This document shows positions 11,900 to 20,705 of a stretch of 64,000 nucleotides of DNA, piece after piece (within the stretch, counting starts at the first letter, position 1; each line of letters begins with the position of its first letter). Origin of the DNA: Methylotenera mobilis 13 (GTDB taxonomy: Bacteria; Pseudomonadota; Gammaproteobacteria; Burkholderiales; Methylophilaceae); NCBI RefSeq assembly GCF_000384255.1, contig NZ_KB913035.1, positions 1,463,362-1,527,361 of the forward strand. Direction: 5' to 3'. Under the pieces are notes generated by a model, which was given only the letters and a program-made list of their open reading frames with translations, had not been told where the DNA came from and made no database searches. A program made the position numbers and the translations under genes.

Positions 11900-11960
11900 A
11901 GTAGAGCTCCTATAAAAATAAAGTTATTACTTTGCGTTATTTAATAAATTACATTTACCC

Positions 11961-11999
11961 TATATATTGTGTGCTATTTAATAGTGCGCTATATATAGG
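11961..11999 (-). promoter_or_regulatory. OhrR operator candidate upstream of ohr
   Basis: The dyad CTATTTAATAG (11974-11984) is flanked by TGTG on the left and TGCGCTATATATAG on the right, giving an AT-rich inverted repeat just upstream of ohr. The 12-base core GCTATTTAATAG recurs exactly in front of ohrR at 12511-12522. OhrR operators are AT-rich dyads containing TTAA-type centres, so OhrR is the likely binder. Confidence 0.6.
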
Positions 12000-12024
12000 A
12001 TGAAAAAAAAGAGCTCTCATTTGC

Positions 12025-12616: not shown

Positions 12617-13543
12617 TTAGATATTAATACTATTTAAAAGCTTAATTCCTTTAAGATGAGCCGCGCAGGTGTTTTTAATAATGTTAACTAAATCGATAGT
12701 GTAGGGTAGCGTGATTGTTTCTGCTGAGCCTGTAGCATGTAGTTCTGACCATAGCCCCTTTTTTCCTATTGATTTTGCAATCACATATTCATGGTCGACA
12801 TAATTTTGGATGCCCCAGCTTGGTAGCGCAGCTATTCCTCTGCGACTAGCAACCAGTTGCATAATCGCAATGGTTAGCTCAGCGGTGCGTCTTCCAAAGT
12901 TGATATTAGCTGGTTTGAGCACATGACGAATGATGTCGATTCGTTCTTCAGGTACTGGGTAAGTAATCAAGGTTTCGTTGGTAAAGTCTTCCGCTACAAA
13001 TCTAGCTTTCTTATGTTTGCTATGATTTGGAGGAATGACCGCCATAATTTCAAACTTAAATAGTGGCTGGTGGGCCAGCGTGCCTATTTTTTCTGGTAAG
13101 CCACCAATTACTAAGTCAGCTTTGCCCTCATGCAATAAATGCCAGGGGTCGCTGTGAAACCCTGCGACTAAATCAATTTCCACCTCTGGCCATGCTCTTC
13201 TAAAAACATCCATTACTGGCGTTAACCAATCGAAGCAAGTGTGACACTCTAGTACGATTCTTAGTTCACCAGACTGTTTGCTTTTTAGGCGGACTAAATC
13301 ACGTTCCGATTTGTCGATGAGCGGTAATAGTTCATTGGCTAAATCTAACAATCGCTGCCCAGCAGGTGTGAAGCGAAGGCCGTGAGCACCTCGCTTGAAT
13401 AGTGTAATTTCGTAATGCATTTCTAATGCGCGAATTTGGTGAGATAGCGCTGACTGTGTCAAAAATATGCGCTCAGCCGCAAGGCCAAGCTTGCCTGTTT
13501 CTGCGATAGCTTTCAGTGATTTTAGGTGACGAATTTCTAGCAT
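12617..13543 (-). CDS. metR: LysR-family regulator MetR
   Basis: A 308-residue LysR-type activator of methionine genes that uses homocysteine as coeffector. The N-terminal HTH (LGLAAERIFLTQSALSHQIR) and the following sequence LRIVLECHTCFDWL are MetR-like. It is divergent from metE, with a perfect TGAA-N5-TTCA MetR box between them. Length is close to the E. coli protein (317). Assignment rests on both sequence character and the metE neighbour. Confidence 0.9.
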   Translation of the reverse strand: MLEIRHLKSLKAIAETGKLGLAAERIFLTQSALSHQIRALEMHYEITLFKRGAHGLRFTPAGQRLLDLANELLPLIDKSERDLVRLKSKQSGELRIVLECHTCFDWLTPVMDVFRRAWPEVEIDLVAGFHSDPWHLLHEGKADLVIGGLPEKIGTLAHQPLFKFEIMAVIPPNHSKHKKARFVAEDFTNETLITYPVPEERIDIIRHVLKPANINFGRRTAELTIAIMQLVASRRGIAALPSWGIQNYVDHEYVIAKSIGKKGLWSELHATGSAETITLPYTIDLVNIIKNTCAAHLKGIKLLNSINI

Positions 13544-13662: not shown

Positions 13663-15972
13663 ATGAAAGAAAATAAAATTAAGAGCCATATTCTAGGATA
13701 CCCACGGATAGGTGATAAACGTGAATTAAAGTTCGCACAAGAGTCATTTTGGCGTGGTGAGTCTTCACCAGATGATCTGCAAACAACAGCACGAAAACTA
13801 CGTGTTGAAAATTGGAAAAAACAACAAAGTGCTGGTTTGAGCTTTATCACAAGTAACGATTTCTCGCTTTATGACCATGTGCTTGATCACAGCGTGTTGT
13901 TTGGAGCATCACCTAGCCGTTTTAGTAAGCTTCCTTTTGGTGCAAAAAACGTATCTGCTGAAACTGCCTATTTTGCAATGGCACGCGGCAATATTGAGCA
14001 ACCAGCGATGGAAATGACTAAATGGTTGGATACTAACTATCATTATATTGTCCCTGAGCTTAATGAAGACACAACATTTTTGATTAATGCACATGATTAT
14101 TTAGTGCAGCTTGATGAAGCACAAAAGCTAGATAAACAAGTGAAACCTGTGTTGTTAGGCCCTGTGAGCTTTTTGTATTTAAGTAAAGCACGCAACGTGA
14201 ATAAGCTTGATTTGTTAGATACGTTATCACAGCAATATGCACATCTGTTACAAGAGTTACGTGCTAGAAAAATAGAGTGGGTGCAGATTGACGAGCCTAT
14301 TTTTGCGTTAGATTTAGAGGATATTTGGTTAAAAGCCTTTGAGCGTGCATATGCATGGTTTAGAGCTTCGCGCCCCAAATTGTTACTGACTACTTATTTT
14401 GGAAATGTGTCACGTTACCAAGCGTATATATCAACTTTACCTGTCGATGGCATTCATATCGATTTAGCAAGGGCGCCTGAGCAGCTAGGGCCTTGGGTCA
14501 ATGCAATCCCTAGCCATTGGGTGTTGTCTGCTGGTGTCGTAGATGGTCGTAATATATGGCGTAATGATTTAGACAAAACGATAACCTTATTGACACCTTG
14601 GGTTCAGCGCCTTGGTGAGCGCTTGTGGGTGGCACCTAGCTGTTCATTGCTACATACGCCGGTGACGTTGGCGCATGAGGTAAAGCTTGATGCGGCGATT
14701 AAACCATGGCTGGCTTTTGCCGATGAAAAAATTGCTGAGTTAAGTATTATCGCTAAGGCTTTGAATCATGGGGTCGAGTCAGTAGCCAATGAGTTGGCGC
14801 TATCACGTGCTGCTATCGCTACACGTCATCAATCTACATTGGTACATTCTGCCAGTGTTAAAGAGCGTGTTGATTCGATTAGTACAATAAACGAACACCG
14901 CGATAGTCCTTTTTCTATAAGAAAAGTTGCACAAAAGGCACGTTTGAATTTACCGCTATTACCCACCACCACAATTGGTTCTTTCCCGCAAACGCGTGAC
15001 ATACGTGCAGCGCGTGCGGCACTTAAAAGGGGCGAGATATCTTTAGTTGAGTATGAAGTGGAAATTAGGTCGCATATCACACATGCTATTCGTGAGCAGG
15101 AGTCTTTAGACCTCGATGTACTTGTTCATGGTGAGGCAGAGCGCAATGATATGGTGGAGTTCTTTGGCGAACAATTGTCTGGCTACGCATTTACTGAAAA
15201 TGGCTGGGTACAAAGCTACGGTTCTCGTTGCGTAAAGCCGCCAGTGATTTATGGAGATGTTTATAGACCTAAACCGATGACAGTTGATTTAGCACGCTTT
15301 GCACAGTCGTTATCTGACAGGCCTGTCAAAGGCATGCTCACTGGTCCAATTACGATGCTGCAATGGTCTTTTGTCCGTGATGATCAGCCACGTTCGACGA
15401 CGGCTATGCAATTAGCATTGGCGATACGTGACGAGGTGGATGATTTGCAAAAAGCTGGTATTGCGATTATTCAAATAGATGAGCCAGCATTACGTGAGGG
15501 CTTGCCTTTGCAAAAGACTGTATGGGAACATTATTTGGCTTGGGCAGTACGTGCATTTAAGCTGAGTGCCAGTGTGGCAGATGATAGTACGCAGATACAC
15601 ACTCACATGTGTTATGCCGAGTTTAACGACATTTTGCCAGCTATTGCTGCCATGGATGCTGATGTGATTACGATAGAAACGTCGAGATCAGCTATGGAGT
15701 TGCTAGATGCGTTTGGTGAATTTGACTACCCCAATGAAATTGGCCCTGGTGTTTATGATATTCACTCACCGCGTGTGCCTAGTGTTGATGCAATGGAACA
15801 TCTGATGTATCACGCGATTAGGGTGGTACCTGTCGAGCGACTTTGGATTAACCCAGATTGCGGACTTAAAACTCGTGGCTGGGATGAGACAAGGCAGGCG
15901 TTACAGAACATGGTCAATGTCGCAAAGTCATTAAGAAAGCAATTCAGCCTAACCACTGCACTCGATTCATAA
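13663..15972 (+). CDS. metE: Cobalamin-independent methionine synthase (MetE)
   Basis: A 769-residue 5-methyltetrahydropteroyltriglutamate-homocysteine methyltransferase that makes methionine without B12. Two homologous halves are present: the N-terminal domain starts with SHILGYPRIGDKRELK, and the catalytic C-terminal half starts around LPTTTIGSFPQT. The zinc ligands are in place: His and Cys in HTHMCYAEFND, Glu in ITIETSRS, and Cys in NPDCGLKTR. Length matches the E. coli enzyme (753). It is divergent from metR, whose box lies in the shared promoter region. nrdA follows on the same strand after 530 bases, but with its own promoter and riboswitch. Confidence 0.97.
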   Translation: MKENKIKSHILGYPRIGDKRELKFAQESFWRGESSPDDLQTTARKLRVENWKKQQSAGLSFITSNDFSLYDHVLDHSVLFGASPSRFSKLPFGAKNVSAETAYFAMARGNIEQPAMEMTKWLDTNYHYIVPELNEDTTFLINAHDYLVQLDEAQKLDKQVKPVLLGPVSFLYLSKARNVNKLDLLDTLSQQYAHLLQELRARKIEWVQIDEPIFALDLEDIWLKAFERAYAWFRASRPKLLLTTYFGNVSRYQAYISTLPVDGIHIDLARAPEQLGPWVNAIPSHWVLSAGVVDGRNIWRNDLDKTITLLTPWVQRLGERLWVAPSCSLLHTPVTLAHEVKLDAAIKPWLAFADEKIAELSIIAKALNHGVESVANELALSRAAIATRHQSTLVHSASVKERVDSISTINEHRDSPFSIRKVAQKARLNLPLLPTTTIGSFPQTRDIRAARAALKRGEISLVEYEVEIRSHITHAIREQESLDLDVLVHGEAERNDMVEFFGEQLSGYAFTENGWVQSYGSRCVKPPVIYGDVYRPKPMTVDLARFAQSLSDRPVKGMLTGPITMLQWSFVRDDQPRSTTAMQLALAIRDEVDDLQKAGIAIIQIDEPALREGLPLQKTVWEHYLAWAVRAFKLSASVADDSTQIHTHMCYAEFNDILPAIAAMDADVITIETSRSAMELLDAFGEFDYPNEIGPGVYDIHSPRVPSVDAMEHLMYHAIRVVPVERLWINPDCGLKTRGWDETRQALQNMVNVAKSLRKQFSLTTALDS

Positions 15973-15999
15973 TATTTGCTAATAAATAATATCTTGTAA

Positions 16000-16046
16000 A
16001 ACATATGTATAGCTATTTATATTAAATATTTAGCTATATATTGTGT
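16000..16046 (+). promoter_or_regulatory. Tandem NrdR-box candidates upstream of nrdA
   Basis: The 16-mer at 16031-16046 agrees with the NrdR consensus (acaCwATATnTwGTGT) over its last 13 positions, CTATATATTGTGT. A weaker copy at 16000-16015 lies exactly 31 bases upstream, within the 31-32 base pitch usual for paired NrdR boxes. NrdR is the ATP/dATP-sensing repressor of ribonucleotide reductase genes. The pair ends 8 bases before the -35 element. The TATAGCTA/TAGCTATA symmetry shared by the boxes could also fold as a weak hairpin. Confidence 0.6.
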
Positions 16047-16053
16047 TTTTAAG

Positions 16054-16083
16054 TTGAAATAACACGCCATATTGCGTTATAGT
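16054..16083 (+). promoter_or_regulatory. Candidate sigma70 promoter for the nrdA leader
   Basis: TTGAAA (16054-16059) followed after 17-18 bases by TTATAG/TATAGT (16077-16083). Transcription from here would start just before the cobalamin riboswitch, giving a leader of about 410 bases. Confidence 0.5.
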
Positions 16084-16119
16084 GAGCGAGTACGGTTCTT
16101 AAATTTTAATCTTAATTTA

Positions 16120-16285
16120 AGATAATAGGGAATACGGTGCGCAATTTCTATCGTTGAAATTGCAATGCCGAAGCTGCCCCCGCAACTGTAATCAGCGAGT
16201 ATTTTGTCTGATACGCCACTGCCTTTTAATTAAGGTGGGAAGGCTGACAAACTATATTGACCTGAAAGCCAGGAGACCTGCCGTA
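16120..16285 (+). promoter_or_regulatory. Cobalamin (B12) riboswitch upstream of nrdA
   Basis: The conserved Cbl-riboswitch blocks appear in the right order: AGGGAATACGGTGC at 16126-16140, GCTGCCCCCGCAACTGTAA at 16173-16191, GCCACTG at 16215-16221, TGGGAAGGC at 16236-16244, and the B12 box AAAGCCAGGAGACCTGCCG at 16265-16283. TACGG (16091-16095) can pair with CCGTA (16281-16285) as a possible P1 extension. The element is downstream of metE and upstream of nrdA, so it controls ribonucleotide reductase rather than metE. Adenosylcobalamin binding should lower expression of the B12-independent class Ia enzyme. Confidence 0.93.
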
Positions 16286-16362
16286 GACATTTTTTACATG
16301 GTTTAACTTTGAGTAGTTTGATTGTGTAAAAGTATTTTATAACGTTTGAGGCGGGGTGTCCT

Positions 16363-16418
16363 CGGCAGATGGAGTGGTTTGTCTTTGCGCATTCACTCCG
16401 CCATGCTGGTTTTTATTT
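16363..16418 (+). terminator. Riboswitch expression-platform terminator
   Basis: ATGGAGTG (16369-16376) pairs with CACTCC (16394-16399) and CAT (16402-16404) across a small bulge, extended by CAG/CTG (16366-16368 with 16406-16408), and followed by GTTTTTATTT. This is a credible intrinsic terminator about 95 bases before nrdA. CGGCAG (16363-16368) at its base is the exact complement of CTGCCG (16278-16283) at the end of the aptamer, so the two can form an alternative antiterminator. Confidence 0.65.
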
Positions 16419-16502
16419 AAGCAAGTAGTCTTTTCTCAGCTTTCTGGAAATGATTTGCGCTGAATAAAAAGTGTCCTGCCCTTTGAAAAAAGGGAAATAA
16501 AA

Positions 16503-19349
16503 ATGGATGATGCAGTTTCACATCTTATCAATACATCTAATAACAATGGCTCTAGTCATACTATTGGCTTAGGCTCTGATTCGTTACCTACACTGCAGGT
16601 CATTCGCCGTAATGGTGATGTTGTTGCCTATCACCTTGATAAAATCTCAATAGCCATTACCAAAGCATTTTTGGCGGTAGAGGGCAATCAAAGCGCAGCT
16701 TCACAGCGCGTGCGCGAGCAAGTCGCTATTTTGAGTCAGTTGGTGAACAACGCACTATTACGCAGATTGCCTGCTGGCGGTGCGATTCATATTGAAGATA
16801 TTCAAGATCAGGTTGAGCTTGCCCTGATGCGTAATGGTAACCATGATGTTGCACGCGCTTATGTGCTATATCGTGAAAAGCGTAATGCTGAGCGTGCAAC
16901 TGATAAGCAAAATCACACTGCGCCAGCATCAAGCCACACACTCAATATTAATGTGAATGGCAAGCTTATCCCTTTAGATATCAATCTATTAAATTCGATG
17001 GTAGCAGAGGCATGCCAAGACCTAGGTGCAGAAGTTAATCCTGATATTGTCGTCGAGCAAGCGATACGCGATCTGTATGACGGGATTCCATTTGATGAAG
17101 TCCGTAAAGCGCTGATCTTATCAGCACGTAGCCTGATTGAAACTGAACCAGCATACAATTATGTAACCGCACGACTCCAGTTAGATTTAATCCGTACCGA
17201 AGTGCTAGGGGAGAGTGTACGCCAAACGGAAATGAAAAGCCGTTATGTCGAGTATTTCCCGCGTTATATCAAAATGGGGGTGGAAGCCGGCTTGTTGGAT
17301 GCTAAATTAGCGCAGTTTGATTTAAGTAAATTAAGCGCAGTATTTGTGGCAGAGCGTGACTTTCAGTTTGGCTATTTAGGTCTGCAAACTTTGTATGACC
17401 GCTATTTTTTACATATTGAAGAACGCCGTATTGAATTGCCACAAATATTCTTTATGCGTGTTGCGATGGGTTTAGCGATTAACGAGATTGACCGTGAAGA
17501 CCGCGCAATTGAGTTCTATCACGTGCTATCCAGCTTTGATTTTATGAGCTCAACACCTACATTATTCAATAGCGGAACTTTGCATTCTCAACTTTCTTCT
17601 TGTTACCTGACTACGGTAAGCGATGACTTGGATGGTATTTATCAAGGTATTAAAGAGAATGCATTGCTACAGAAGTACGCGGGTGGTTTGGGTAACGATT
17701 GGACGCCAGTACGCTCTTTAGGCTCACGGATTAAAGGGACCAATGGTAAGAGCCAAGGCGTGATTCCCTTCCTGAAAGTCGTGAATGACACTGCTGTTGC
17801 GGTCAACCAAGGTGGCAAGCGTAAAGGGGCGGTGTGTGGATACTTAGAAACTTGGCATTTAGATATTGAAGAGTTTCTGGATTTACGCAAAAACACTGGC
17901 GATGACCGTCGCCGTACACATGATATGAACACCGCGCACTGGATCCCTGATTTATTCATGCGCCGTGTCACTGAAAATGGGGAGTGGACATTATTCTCGC
18001 CGTCAGACGTGCCTGACCTGCATGACAAATATGGCCAAGCGTTTGAAGCGGCTTATGTTGAATATGAGCGCCGTGCAGATAATGGCGAAATCAAATTGTT
18101 TAAACGTATTCCTGCATTGCAAATGTGGCGCAAGATGCTTTCTATGCTGTTTGAAACAGGTCATCCTTGGATTACTTTCAAAGACCCATGCAACATTCGT
18201 TCACCACAGCAGCATGTAGGTGTGGTGCATAGCTCTAACCTTTGTACAGAAATTACACTGAATACGTCAGATACGGAAATTGCCGTGTGTAACTTAGGCT
18301 CTGTCAACTTATTGCAGCACCTGAAAGAAGTGGATGGCCAGCTAGTATTAGATAACGATAAGCTACAGGCGACCATTAAAGTGGGCATGCGTATGCTGGA
18401 CAACGTGGTTGATATTAACTTCTACGCAGTGGGAAAAGCGCGCAACTCTAACTACCGTCATCGCCCAGTCGGCATGGGTATTATGGGTTTTCAGAACTGC
18501 CTGCATGCAATGCGTATCCCCTATGCAAGCAATGAAGCGGTCGAGTTTGCTGACCGCGCCATGGAAACCGTGTGTTACAACGCTTATTGGGCGTCGACGG
18601 TGTTAGCGGAAGAGCGTGGTGCATATTCAAGCTTTAAAGGCAGCTTGTGGGATCAAGGCATTCTGCCACTGGATACATTAGATTTACTATCGAATGAACG
18701 CGGCGGCAACGTAGAGGTAGATAGAAGCAAAACGCTAGATTGGGATGCATTGCGTACACGCATTCAAACAGTGGGTATGCGTAACTCTAACTGCGTAGCG
18801 ATTGCACCTACTGCGACTATCTCTAATATCGTCGGTGTTTCTGCCAGTATTGAGCCTGAATATCAAAACCTTTACGTTAAATCTAATCTTTCAGGTGAGT
18901 TTACGATTGTGAATGAGCAGTTGGTGATTGATCTTAAAAACCGTGGTTTGTGGGATGCTGTCATGGTCTATGACTTGAAGTATTTTGATGGCTCACTCGC
19001 ACCGATTGACCGTGTACCTGCAGACTTGAAACAGCTGTATGCAACCGCTTTTGATGTTGACCCAAGTTGGTTGATTGAAGCTGCCGCGCGCCGTCAAAAA
19101 TGGATAGACCAAGCACAATCACTTAACCTGTATTTTGCTGTTCCATCAGGCAAGAAGCTCAATGATACCTACATGCTGGCTTGGAAGCGTGGCCTGAAAA
19201 CGACGTACTACCTGCGCTCATTAGGTGCAACAGCAGCGGAGAAATCAACTGGCAGCGGCGGTGAGTTGAATGCGGTCGCATCGAGTGCCTCAGAACCAGC
19301 GCCGAAGATGTGCAGTATAGACAACCCAGAGTGCGAATCTTGCCAATAG
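16503..19349 (+). CDS. nrdA: Class Ia ribonucleoside-diphosphate reductase, alpha subunit
   Basis: A 948-residue catalytic subunit that reduces ribonucleoside diphosphates. It is longer than E. coli NrdA (761) because of the N-terminus: an ATP-cone at about 31-133 and a second, more diverged one at about 145-235, as in Pseudomonas aeruginosa NrdA. Active-site elements are present: Cys in SSCYL, the radical Cys and Glu in SSNLCTEI, the partner Cys in AVCNLGS, the Tyr-Tyr radical-transfer pair in TTYYLRS, and the C-terminal swinging-arm cysteines in CSIDNPECESCQ. nrdB follows after 222 bases. Expression is probably governed by the NrdR boxes and the cobalamin riboswitch upstream. Confidence 0.97.
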   Translation: MDDAVSHLINTSNNNGSSHTIGLGSDSLPTLQVIRRNGDVVAYHLDKISIAITKAFLAVEGNQSAASQRVREQVAILSQLVNNALLRRLPAGGAIHIEDIQDQVELALMRNGNHDVARAYVLYREKRNAERATDKQNHTAPASSHTLNINVNGKLIPLDINLLNSMVAEACQDLGAEVNPDIVVEQAIRDLYDGIPFDEVRKALILSARSLIETEPAYNYVTARLQLDLIRTEVLGESVRQTEMKSRYVEYFPRYIKMGVEAGLLDAKLAQFDLSKLSAVFVAERDFQFGYLGLQTLYDRYFLHIEERRIELPQIFFMRVAMGLAINEIDREDRAIEFYHVLSSFDFMSSTPTLFNSGTLHSQLSSCYLTTVSDDLDGIYQGIKENALLQKYAGGLGNDWTPVRSLGSRIKGTNGKSQGVIPFLKVVNDTAVAVNQGGKRKGAVCGYLETWHLDIEEFLDLRKNTGDDRRRTHDMNTAHWIPDLFMRRVTENGEWTLFSPSDVPDLHDKYGQAFEAAYVEYERRADNGEIKLFKRIPALQMWRKMLSMLFETGHPWITFKDPCNIRSPQQHVGVVHSSNLCTEITLNTSDTEIAVCNLGSVNLLQHLKEVDGQLVLDNDKLQATIKVGMRMLDNVVDINFYAVGKARNSNYRHRPVGMGIMGFQNCLHAMRIPYASNEAVEFADRAMETVCYNAYWASTVLAEERGAYSSFKGSLWDQGILPLDTLDLLSNERGGNVEVDRSKTLDWDALRTRIQTVGMRNSNCVAIAPTATISNIVGVSASIEPEYQNLYVKSNLSGEFTIVNEQLVIDLKNRGLWDAVMVYDLKYFDGSLAPIDRVPADLKQLYATAFDVDPSWLIEAAARRQKWIDQAQSLNLYFAVPSGKKLNDTYMLAWKRGLKTTYYLRSLGATAAEKSTGSGGELNAVASSASEPAPKMCSIDNPECESCQ

Positions 19350-19373
19350 AAAATTAAAAGTTCGAAACCTGTC

Positions 19374-19393
19374 ATTCCCGCGAAAGCGGGAAT
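19374..19393. repeat. Palindromic interspersed repeat in the nrdA-nrdB gap
   Basis: ATTCCCGC (19374-19381) and GCGGGAAT (19386-19393) form a perfect 8-bp hairpin around GAAA, within the longer unit GTCATTCCCGCGAAAGCG...ATCCA. This unit resembles the widespread proteobacterial/Neisseria ATTCCCGC-type intergenic repeats. Only one copy is seen in this window. Between nrdA and nrdB it may attenuate readthrough or stabilise the nrdA mRNA. Confidence 0.7.
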
Positions 19394-19571
19394 CCATTTT
19401 TGGAACGATTTAATCGTATTAAATATATAAACGTTTAGCTTCTAAACTCAATATAACACTGACTTTTAAACCACTAGCCTATAGATTAAATACAATGAAG
19501 TATCAGTGCGATCGATGTAGGGGTGACTTAGTTAAGCCGTAAATTAGAAGCTGAACTATTAAGGAAAAAAC

Positions 19572-20705
19572 ATGCTTTCATTTGAAGATGAAGTTTACGA
19601 AGCACCAGTTTCACCAAAGCTTGTGCCAGTACCAACAACACACACAGAAACTACAACACCGCTAGCCGCCAATCAACCTTCTATTTCAGGCCGTGTCAAC
19701 GCCTCTGATAAACGTATGATTAACGGCCAAACCGACGTGAATCAACTGGTGCCGTTTAAGTATCACTGGGCATGGGATAAATATTTAGCGGGTTGCGCCA
19801 ACCACTGGATGCCGCAAGAAGTATCCATGAGCCGCGATATTGCACAGTGGAAAGATAGCACTGCACTCACGGATGATGAGCGCTTGATTGTGAAGCGTAA
19901 CTTAGGTTTTTTTACCACGGCAGACTCACTTGCCGCAAACAACATCGTGTTAGGCACCTATCGGCACATTACGGCACCAGAGTGCCGCCAATACTTACTA
20001 CGCCAAGGTTTTGAAGAGGCGATTCACACCCATGCCTATCAATACATCGTTGAAAGCCTAGGTTTAGACGAAGCAGAAGTCTTTAATGCTTACCAAGAGA
20101 TACCGAGCATTAAAGCAAAAGATGACTTTTTGATACCTTTTATCAATACGCTAACAGACCCAGAGTTTAAAACGGGTACACCAGAAGCTGATCAGCAACT
20201 GTTGCGCTCACTCATCGTTTTCGCCTGCATTATGGAGGGGTTATTTTTCTATGTAGGTTTTGTACAGATTCTAGCATTGGGCCGCCAAAACAAGATGCAA
20301 GGTGCGGCCGAGCAGTATCAATATATTCTGCGTGATGAATCGATGCATTGCAATTTTGGTATTGATGTTATCAATACCATTAAGCTAGAGAACCCACATT
20401 TATGGACGTCTGAATTTAGAGATGAGATTAAATCCTTAATGCGGCATGGGGTAGAGCTTGAGTATCACTATGCTGAAGCCACGATGCCTCGTGGTGTACT
20501 TGGGCTTAATTCAGCCATGTTTAAAGAATACCTACGCTTTATTGCTAATCGTCGTTGTCAGCAGATTGGTTTAGAAGCGCTTTATCCCGGCGCGAATAAC
20601 CCATTCCCCTGGATGAGTGAAATGATGGACCTGAAAAAAGAGAAAAACTTTTTTGAGACACGGGTCACTGAGTATCAAACTGGTGGTGCATTAAGTTGGG
20701 ATTAG
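19572..20705 (+). CDS. nrdB: Class Ia ribonucleoside-diphosphate reductase, beta subunit
   Basis: A 377-residue radical-generating subunit. The di-iron ligands are visible: Asp in [10 protein letters not shown], Glu and His in [10 protein letters not shown], Glu in IMEGLFFY, and Glu/His in RDESMHCNF. The tyrosyl-radical Tyr is present in THAYQYI, arguing against the metal-only class Ic. No nrdI or nrdH follows, which argues against class Ib. The first 35 residues are Pro/Thr-rich and look disordered. It has an AAGGA ribosome-binding site and is probably co-transcribed with nrdA through the 222-base gap carrying the palindromic repeat. Confidence 0.96.

Follow-up and report, generated by a model that had tools for sequence, protein, structure and literature searches.

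A B12 riboswitch at the nrdABS operon of Streptomyces was reportedly described by Borovok in 2006. In the available part of a published account, this operon encodes a class Ia ribonucleotide reductase (RNR) under an AdoCbl riboswitch, and the class II enzyme NrdJ is the primary reductase (PMC4991794). In Propionibacterium acnes, nrdAB carries an nrd-box over its promoter and a cobalamin riboswitch in its 5′ UTR, a B12-dependent NrdJ is encoded elsewhere, and in RNA-seq a large part of transcription seems to end ahead of the first gene (PMC3848588). More generally, cobalamin riboswitches regulate isozymes of B12-dependent enzymes (PMC3766115, PMC9600662), and an L5-L13 kissing loop is a defined part of these riboswitches (PMC9600662).

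The locus described here lies in a window, the whole stretch of 64,000 nucleotides that was analysed (C1:1463362-1527361 of the 2.80 Mb, one-contig genome of Methylotenera mobilis 13, G000), and positions below are counted within it. The gene for the B12-independent methionine synthase, metE (13663-15972, plus strand; TIGR01371, 1056.4 bits, over cut-off), is followed on the same strand by nrdA (16503-19349, 948 aa; PRK07207, 1695.8 bits) and nrdB (19572-20705, 377 aa; PRK07209, 684.6 bits), confirming the neighbourhood of metE and nrdAB named in an earlier note on this DNA. NrdA and NrdB both pass the cut-offs of models that are themselves for class I alpha and beta only; the "a" of class Ia is our assumption. 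Divergent from metE lies an ORF for a LysR-family regulator (12617-13543, minus strand), which is MetR-like at 229.2 bits to PRK15421, below the cut-off of 382, and a candidate for the MetR control of metE put forward in the earlier note. The metE-nrdA gap holds NrdR-type boxes, a promoter-like site, a full aptamer, a post-aptamer element, a terminator hairpin and a hairpin over the ribosome-binding site (RBS). Inspection by eye of the nrdA-nrdB gap (19350-19571) also showed a sequence of the CATTCCCGCGAAAGCGGGAATCC type that can fold into a hairpin; it may be a REP-like element and could influence nrdB expression.

This layout resembles that of P. acnes in having nrdAB with an NrdR-type box and a cobalamin riboswitch together with a separate nrdJ, so that the combination follows a known principle; however, P. 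acnes is an actinobacterium with a single nrd-box at nrdAB, and the available text on it mentions neither an adjacent metE nor an exchange of enzymes behind the leader (PMC3848588). With Streptomyces it shares a class Ia RNR with a B12 riboswitch and a class II enzyme alongside, a precedent which the earlier note had named, whereas the Streptomyces operon includes the AraC-like nrdS, and in the part of the account available no metE neighbour is told of and NrdR is not mentioned (PMC4991794). PMC9600662 describes metE itself as carrying a riboswitch, as far as its available text goes, whereas in the window the riboswitch sits on nrdAB; our RF00174 search found no second cobalamin riboswitch at metE in the window. 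In the main text of PMC3766115, as available, nrdA does not occur. The portion of the open-access literature covered here contained no account of the arrangement from methanotrophs, Methylophilaceae or other betaproteobacteria; some of the sites may already appear in earlier comparative work on B12 elements.

At the promoter, candidate NrdR boxes were scored against the NrdR box consensus and its spacing rule of about 31 bases. Box 2 (16031-16046, 13/16) lies just upstream of the −35 element and is conserved over relatives; box 1 (16000-16015, 9/16) is 31 bases upstream of it, and box 3 (16062-16077, 12/16) 31 bases downstream, within the promoter spacer and less certain because of this overlap. 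The sigma70-like promoter which the earlier note had placed between the NrdR boxes and the aptamer, TTGAAA-18-TATAGT (16054-16083, plus strand), is present at 10/12 and is weak as a single match, because the metE-nrdA region contains 6 promoter-like matches compared to 2.2 in shuffles. A scan of the window at up to 3 mismatches returned 34 NrdR-box matches versus 26 expected, and a box of at least 12 with a partner of at least 8 at 31 bases upstream occurs at five places, two of them at the nrdA leader. Viewed without conservation, single box matches at this leader would be weak evidence. Across 49 upstream regions, the mean box score peaks at offsets +32 (8.43) and −31 (7.49) from the central box over a background of 5.44 (sd 0.77); the two box sets comprised 52 and 49 rows after thinning by identity. 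The strongest peak, at +32, is the position of box 3, and since this box overlaps the promoter, some of its score may come from the promoter itself. Boxes 1 and 2 are strong in most methanotroph leaders and boxes 2 and 3 in several genera, and Methylotenera-type leaders carry weaker traces of all three. The box pair at a 31-base pitch noted earlier is therefore right as far as a pair goes, and there are likely up to three NrdR boxes before nrdA in Methylophilaceae.

In line with an NrdR regulon, nrdR itself is present in the genome (TIGR00244, 195.6 bits) and boxes about 31 bases apart stand at the promoter. The upstream region of the genome's own nrdJ carries an NrdR-like box, ACACAATATATAGTGG, at 15/16. 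A box of at least 12 within 350 bases was found at 9 of the 11 nrdJ loci scanned in Methylophilaceae, the other two (L040, L043) having been scanned on the wrong ORF; among random window stretches of the same length (n = 300), 29 had a best match of at least 12. Elsewhere in the window, the stretch at 11957-12001, flanked by genes for an Ohr-type peroxiredoxin and an OhrR-like MarR protein, holds a pair of palindromes that resemble NrdR boxes and are spaced about 29 bases apart; they are probably an OhrR operator, and caution against trusting single boxes.

Downstream of the promoter, the complete cobalamin riboswitch proposed in the earlier note passed the covariance-model check: RF00174 matches 16076-16299 on the plus strand at 115.3 bits (E 3.4e-28) compared to a gathering score of 31.5, with all 189 model positions covered, and a chance or partial match was rejected. 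By sequence and fold placement, L5 is CCCCCGC (16177-16183) and the B12 box is GCCAGGAGACCTGCCG (16268-16283). Just past the aptamer, a 22-base element conserved before class I nrdA (16345-16366) forms by fold placement the P13/L13 hairpin GAGG-CGGGGTGT-CCTC, and its loop GCGGGG (within 16348-16363) is complementary to L5 at −14.7 kcal/mol, as an L5-L13 interaction requires.

The element is followed by a terminator hairpin (16363-16408; −17.4 kcal/mol, z −2.19) that begins at CGGCAG and has a T run directly after it, GTTTTTATTT (16409-16418). Its stems covary in relatives, native halves pairing at −11.9 compared to −6.9 (sd 0.52) for swapped ones, with 0/300 swaps as low among 22 different stems. 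A simple consensus terminator scan of 15950-16550 found 0 where 0.3 were expected, which probably reflects the bulges of the hairpin and a loop beyond the length that the scan permits. Two further pairings could compete with this hairpin and the aptamer. Over 31 leaders, not thinned, L13 fits the terminator 3′ arm at a mean of −13.9 versus −11.3 (sd 0.44) for shuffled arms (0/200 as low); the pairing reaches −18.4 in the window, and CCGCC is present in 18 of the 31 arms. The element also pairs with the B12 box at −24.4, versus −14.7 (sd 3.0) for shuffles (11/2000 as low), and this is the weakest of the three pairings because at five further window positions the fit to the B12 box is at least as good. 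Folded alone, 16345-16420 has the L13-terminator-arm pairing as its optimum (−23.2), which would correspond to the proposed B12-free state. Free folding of the leader, which cannot model B12, does not favour this model: the optimum lies at −131.2, compared to −129.0 with the terminator forced and −127.1 with the antiterminator forced.

The earlier note had predicted a class II reductase or a B12 uptake route elsewhere in the genome, and its suggested search for nrdJ, metH, btuB and nrdR returned nrdJ, metH, nrdR and a btuB-like gene. A class II, B12-dependent RNR, as expected if nrdAB is a B12-repressed backup, is encoded by nrdJ at C1:173592-175508 (TIGR02504, 571.4 bits, over cut-off), and metH scores 1675.5 bits. 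The genome has two RF00174 matches; behind the second (2724765-2725017) lie genes for a TonB receptor, a corrinoid adenosyltransferase, a CobB/CobQ-type amidotransferase, a nitroreductase-family protein, a periplasmic binding protein and CobU. From this context we take the receptor to be BtuB-like. Judged by these matches, the genome encodes a B12-dependent and a B12-free version of each of the two enzymes, together with a B12 route.

From these directly observed sequence elements, complementarities, conservation patterns and gene contents, we infer ligand binding, termination, NrdR binding and the direction of regulation as follows. NrdR would repress the nrdAB promoter according to the dNTP pool, as its boxes suggest, and may do so at nrdJ, which has such a box too. 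Transcripts once started would run into the cobalamin aptamer. When B12 is bound, L5 (CCCCCGC) would pair with L13 (GCGGGG) of the hairpin just past the aptamer, blocking L13 from the terminator 3′ arm (GGCGGGGUG/CACUCCGCC) and the element from the B12 box; because L13 is held by L5, the terminator would form, nrdA would be off, and NrdJ would supply dNTPs. Without B12, L13 would be free, the terminator would be opened and nrdAB would be made, serving as the backup ribonucleotide reductase when B12 is short. With good confidence, we regard nrdAB as a B12-shortage backup reductase under NrdR and under B12-dependent termination via L5-L13.

The riboswitch might instead act on translation or Rho access, with B12 hiding the nrdA RBS, which already lies in the CCCTTT/AAAGGG hairpin (16479-16494), and no intrinsic terminator involved. 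This hairpin is stable (−7.7 kcal/mol, z −3.93, 0/200 shuffles), C-rich stretches are seen by eye before the start codon in many leaders, and the strict terminator form is present in only 33 of 66 leaders. Even a looser search left several Methylovorus-, Methylobacillus- and Methylophilus-type leaders without a terminator, and in many type B leaders (see below), as in the Methylovorus-type ones, it saw no hairpin with a T tract; leaders of this kind must use another mode of control. However, the terminator occurs and covaries in the window and in closer relatives, its arm is a better partner for L13 than shuffled arms are, and the element lies about 140 bases upstream of the start codon. We consider translational or Rho-mediated control rather unlikely and retain termination via L5-L13.

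Conservation analysis showed that the riboswitch precedes 54 of the 55 class I nrdA genes with upstream DNA among the matches listed for 187 Methylophilaceae genomes. This set derives from 57 genes among the matches listed, two of which (L098, L100) were dropped because a contig end cuts their upstream region; 16 came in addition from the RNR search of the 187 genomes, in which lower-scoring or partial matches beyond those listed stayed untyped. The 54 riboswitches are composed of 39 from a search of 100 family genomes and 14 plus 1 from two locus searches, the family-wide and order-wide riboswitch searches having used stricter filters that lose weak matches. Within the 100-genome sample, 97 genomes have a cobalamin match and 41 carry class I nrdA, namely 26 of type A (the window's) and 15 of type B, which is class 1a by PRK09103 as tested on the G043 protein. 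By position, a riboswitch lies 0.8-1.35 kb upstream of the PF02867 match in 39 of the 41. The genome G010 was added later: a locus search found its aptamer before nrdA (L090 5862-6272), with a long insertion and only 61.3 bits, which removed it as a second exception. An apparent second class I gene without a riboswitch in G128 was discarded as well, the ORF being class II (NrdJ_Z, 603.9 bits); besides nrdJ, this genome encodes a second, longer class II reductase of 983 aa (L107 2364-5315). Three genomes (G014, G045, G083) show no RNR alpha match at all, even though G014 is rated 99% complete. This likely reflects assembly gaps or an unrecognised enzyme, and some gene absences are accordingly gaps.

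Genomes without class I mostly (55/59 in the 100-genome sample) have a single cobalamin riboswitch, which fits an OM43 strain whose only one is described at btuB (PMC9004378). In a survey of the order (50 genomes from 49 families; 80 of 85 RNR rows, without the five fragments from G204 and G232), a riboswitch stands before an RNR alpha gene in three genomes, i.e., the window genome, G010 and G226, and thus in 1 of the 48 sampled genomes outside Methylophilaceae. The latter, G226, has the same order as the window: metE (52% identical), an NrdR-like box, the riboswitch and nrdAB (73 and 79%). The earlier note had called the arrangement unfamiliar in betaproteobacteria; this holds for the order, where it is rare, but not for Methylophilaceae with class I, where it is usual. 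We report as new that the riboswitch is kept at 54 of 55 listed class I nrdA genes of the family, the exception being a decayed aptamer in a genome without a class II match.

This exception, G043, is the sole class I genome without a class II match in the 100-genome sample and likewise among the matches listed for the 187 genomes. A search of the 9.5 kb surrounding its nrdA gave no cobalamin match with E values allowed up to 10. An alignment with five leaders of its genus shows that NrdR box, promoter region and RBS are kept and L5, B12 box and L13 are degraded, indicating that the aptamer is decayed in place, and the genome retains two other cobalamin riboswitches elsewhere. Such decay is expected if the nrdAB switch is useful only beside nrdJ. 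It concerns one genome of about 20 contigs and completeness 99, and nrdJ may lie in an assembly gap; moreover, G240, outside the family, keeps the leader with no nrdJ match. The metE beside the G043 nrdA is shortened to 366 codons (L083 1951-3460), with a full metE on another contig. On the same locus, the ORF following the shortened metE on the opposite strand is thioredoxin-like by eye, and a fluoride riboswitch (L083 180-260, 51.8 bits) precedes an ORF that is crcB-like by eye. These data bear on the idea that the riboswitch is a relic of a shared leader, that nrdAB is no longer regulated by it, and that NrdR alone controls both reductases. The NrdR-type boxes before both nrdA and nrdJ would suit such a scheme, but the aptamer has been retained in 54 of 55 listed family cases, including where the downstream enzyme differs, and is decayed where nrdJ was not found. 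This makes a relic very unlikely in our view and speaks for a working switch.

The grouping of B12-free isozymes pointed out in the earlier note turned out to be a family-wide pattern. In the 100-genome sample, metE is matched in 40 of 41 genomes with class I compared to 1 of 59 without (G092, a partial 87-bit match), a co-occurrence of nrdAB and metE that appears in these gene contents and is reported here as new. The two could form an optional module allowing life without B12. Mere neighbourhood might also account for their co-presence, one event of gain or loss affecting both genes with no joint role in B12 independence, and the genes are indeed close: in 25 of the 41 genomes metE lies no more than 3 kb upstream of nrdA in the same orientation, and in 31 no more than 15 kb. 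However, of the other 10 genomes, 9 still have a metE match elsewhere (just downstream in G002 and G025), the tenth, G064, having none in a broken assembly; in five genera of mixed content, metE is likewise missing from all 12 genomes without class I, three of which are the genomes with no RNR match (G014, G045, G083); and four Methylophilus-type loci have a nearby metE of another type, so that the pairing is not one inherited block everywhere. Neighbourhood as the sole cause thus seems improbable to us, and we favour the optional module.

The post-aptamer 22-mer, TTTGAGGCGGGGTGNCCTCGGC, allowed us to follow the leader beyond the family. In a collection described as 84,980 species, from which records of the window's own or near genomes may be left out, we found 50 stretches, and all 50 precede a class I nrdA of the same orientation, with the first aligned NrdA codon (better-fitting type) 93-318 bases away. 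Their hosts are ten methanotrophs (Methylovulum, Methylobacter, Methyloglobulus, Methylomicrobium, Methylococcaceae), one unplaced MAG (L127) and 39 of Methylophilaceae type. All 11 loci outside Methylophilaceae have RF00174, and 10 of these 11 genomes encode nrdJ over cut-off, the exception, G240 (L133), having class I and no nrdJ match. Among the stretches found, the 22-mer thus appears confined to class I nrdA leaders of Methylophilaceae and gammaproteobacterial methanotrophs, which we report as new. Two other origins were rejected: a general part of B12 leaders, given the 50/50 placement and an L13 in the genome's own btuB leader that differs by eye, and a phage-borne leader, given that the viral collection contained no exact match.

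The two NrdA types, A and B, share about 28% identity, and the placement of both behind the same leader is likewise reported here as new. A leader tree (66 rows, 305 columns) needs three type changes: Methylophilus-group leaders of both types fall together (83/59), one type A leader stands beside 15 of type B (97/92), and the type B leader of G016 groups with Methylovorus-type A leaders (88/95). A single clade of all type B leaders is disfavoured (p-AU 0.022). The metE tree, which left out L075, L076 and L157 (downstream matches, probably another gene) and matches below 280 aa, also needs three changes; it places G016 with the Methylovorus type (98), and the metE of another type near the four Methylophilus-type B loci beside the G226 metE. 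In a quick tree of type A NrdA without pieces below 600 aa, the methanotroph proteins (7 rows) branch from within Methylophilaceae (98 and 96). Given a short leader alignment and a count of changes that cannot separate gain from loss, it is with moderate confidence that we read the trees as an exchange of nrdAB behind a kept leader and its transfer to methanotrophs. The wider proposal is that the leader forms a stable "socket", with two or three swaps to a class I reductase of about 28% identity in Methylophilaceae, and that gammaproteobacterial methanotrophs received the leader together with nrdAB. Bacteria that perhaps trade B12 with one another would then have a B12-independence module in common; we see the case for this proposal as evenly balanced.

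Among the methanotrophs, Methylovulum miyakonense HT12 needs cobalamin despite having B12-free versions of methionine synthase and ribonucleotide reductase, and in the available part of a review its cobalamin function is said to need more work (PMC5023238). The nrdAB of this strain carries the same riboswitch (L112). If the switch works as proposed, nrdAB would be on without B12, and the cobalamin need of HT12 would not be explained by B12 repression of nrdAB. The family offers a natural experiment on riboswitch retention: some genomes have the switch along with both enzymes, others do without the B12-free module, and in one, where the B12 enzyme was not found, the switch has decayed. In these methanol-eating bacteria, the switch should turn the B12-free reductase off when B12 is present.
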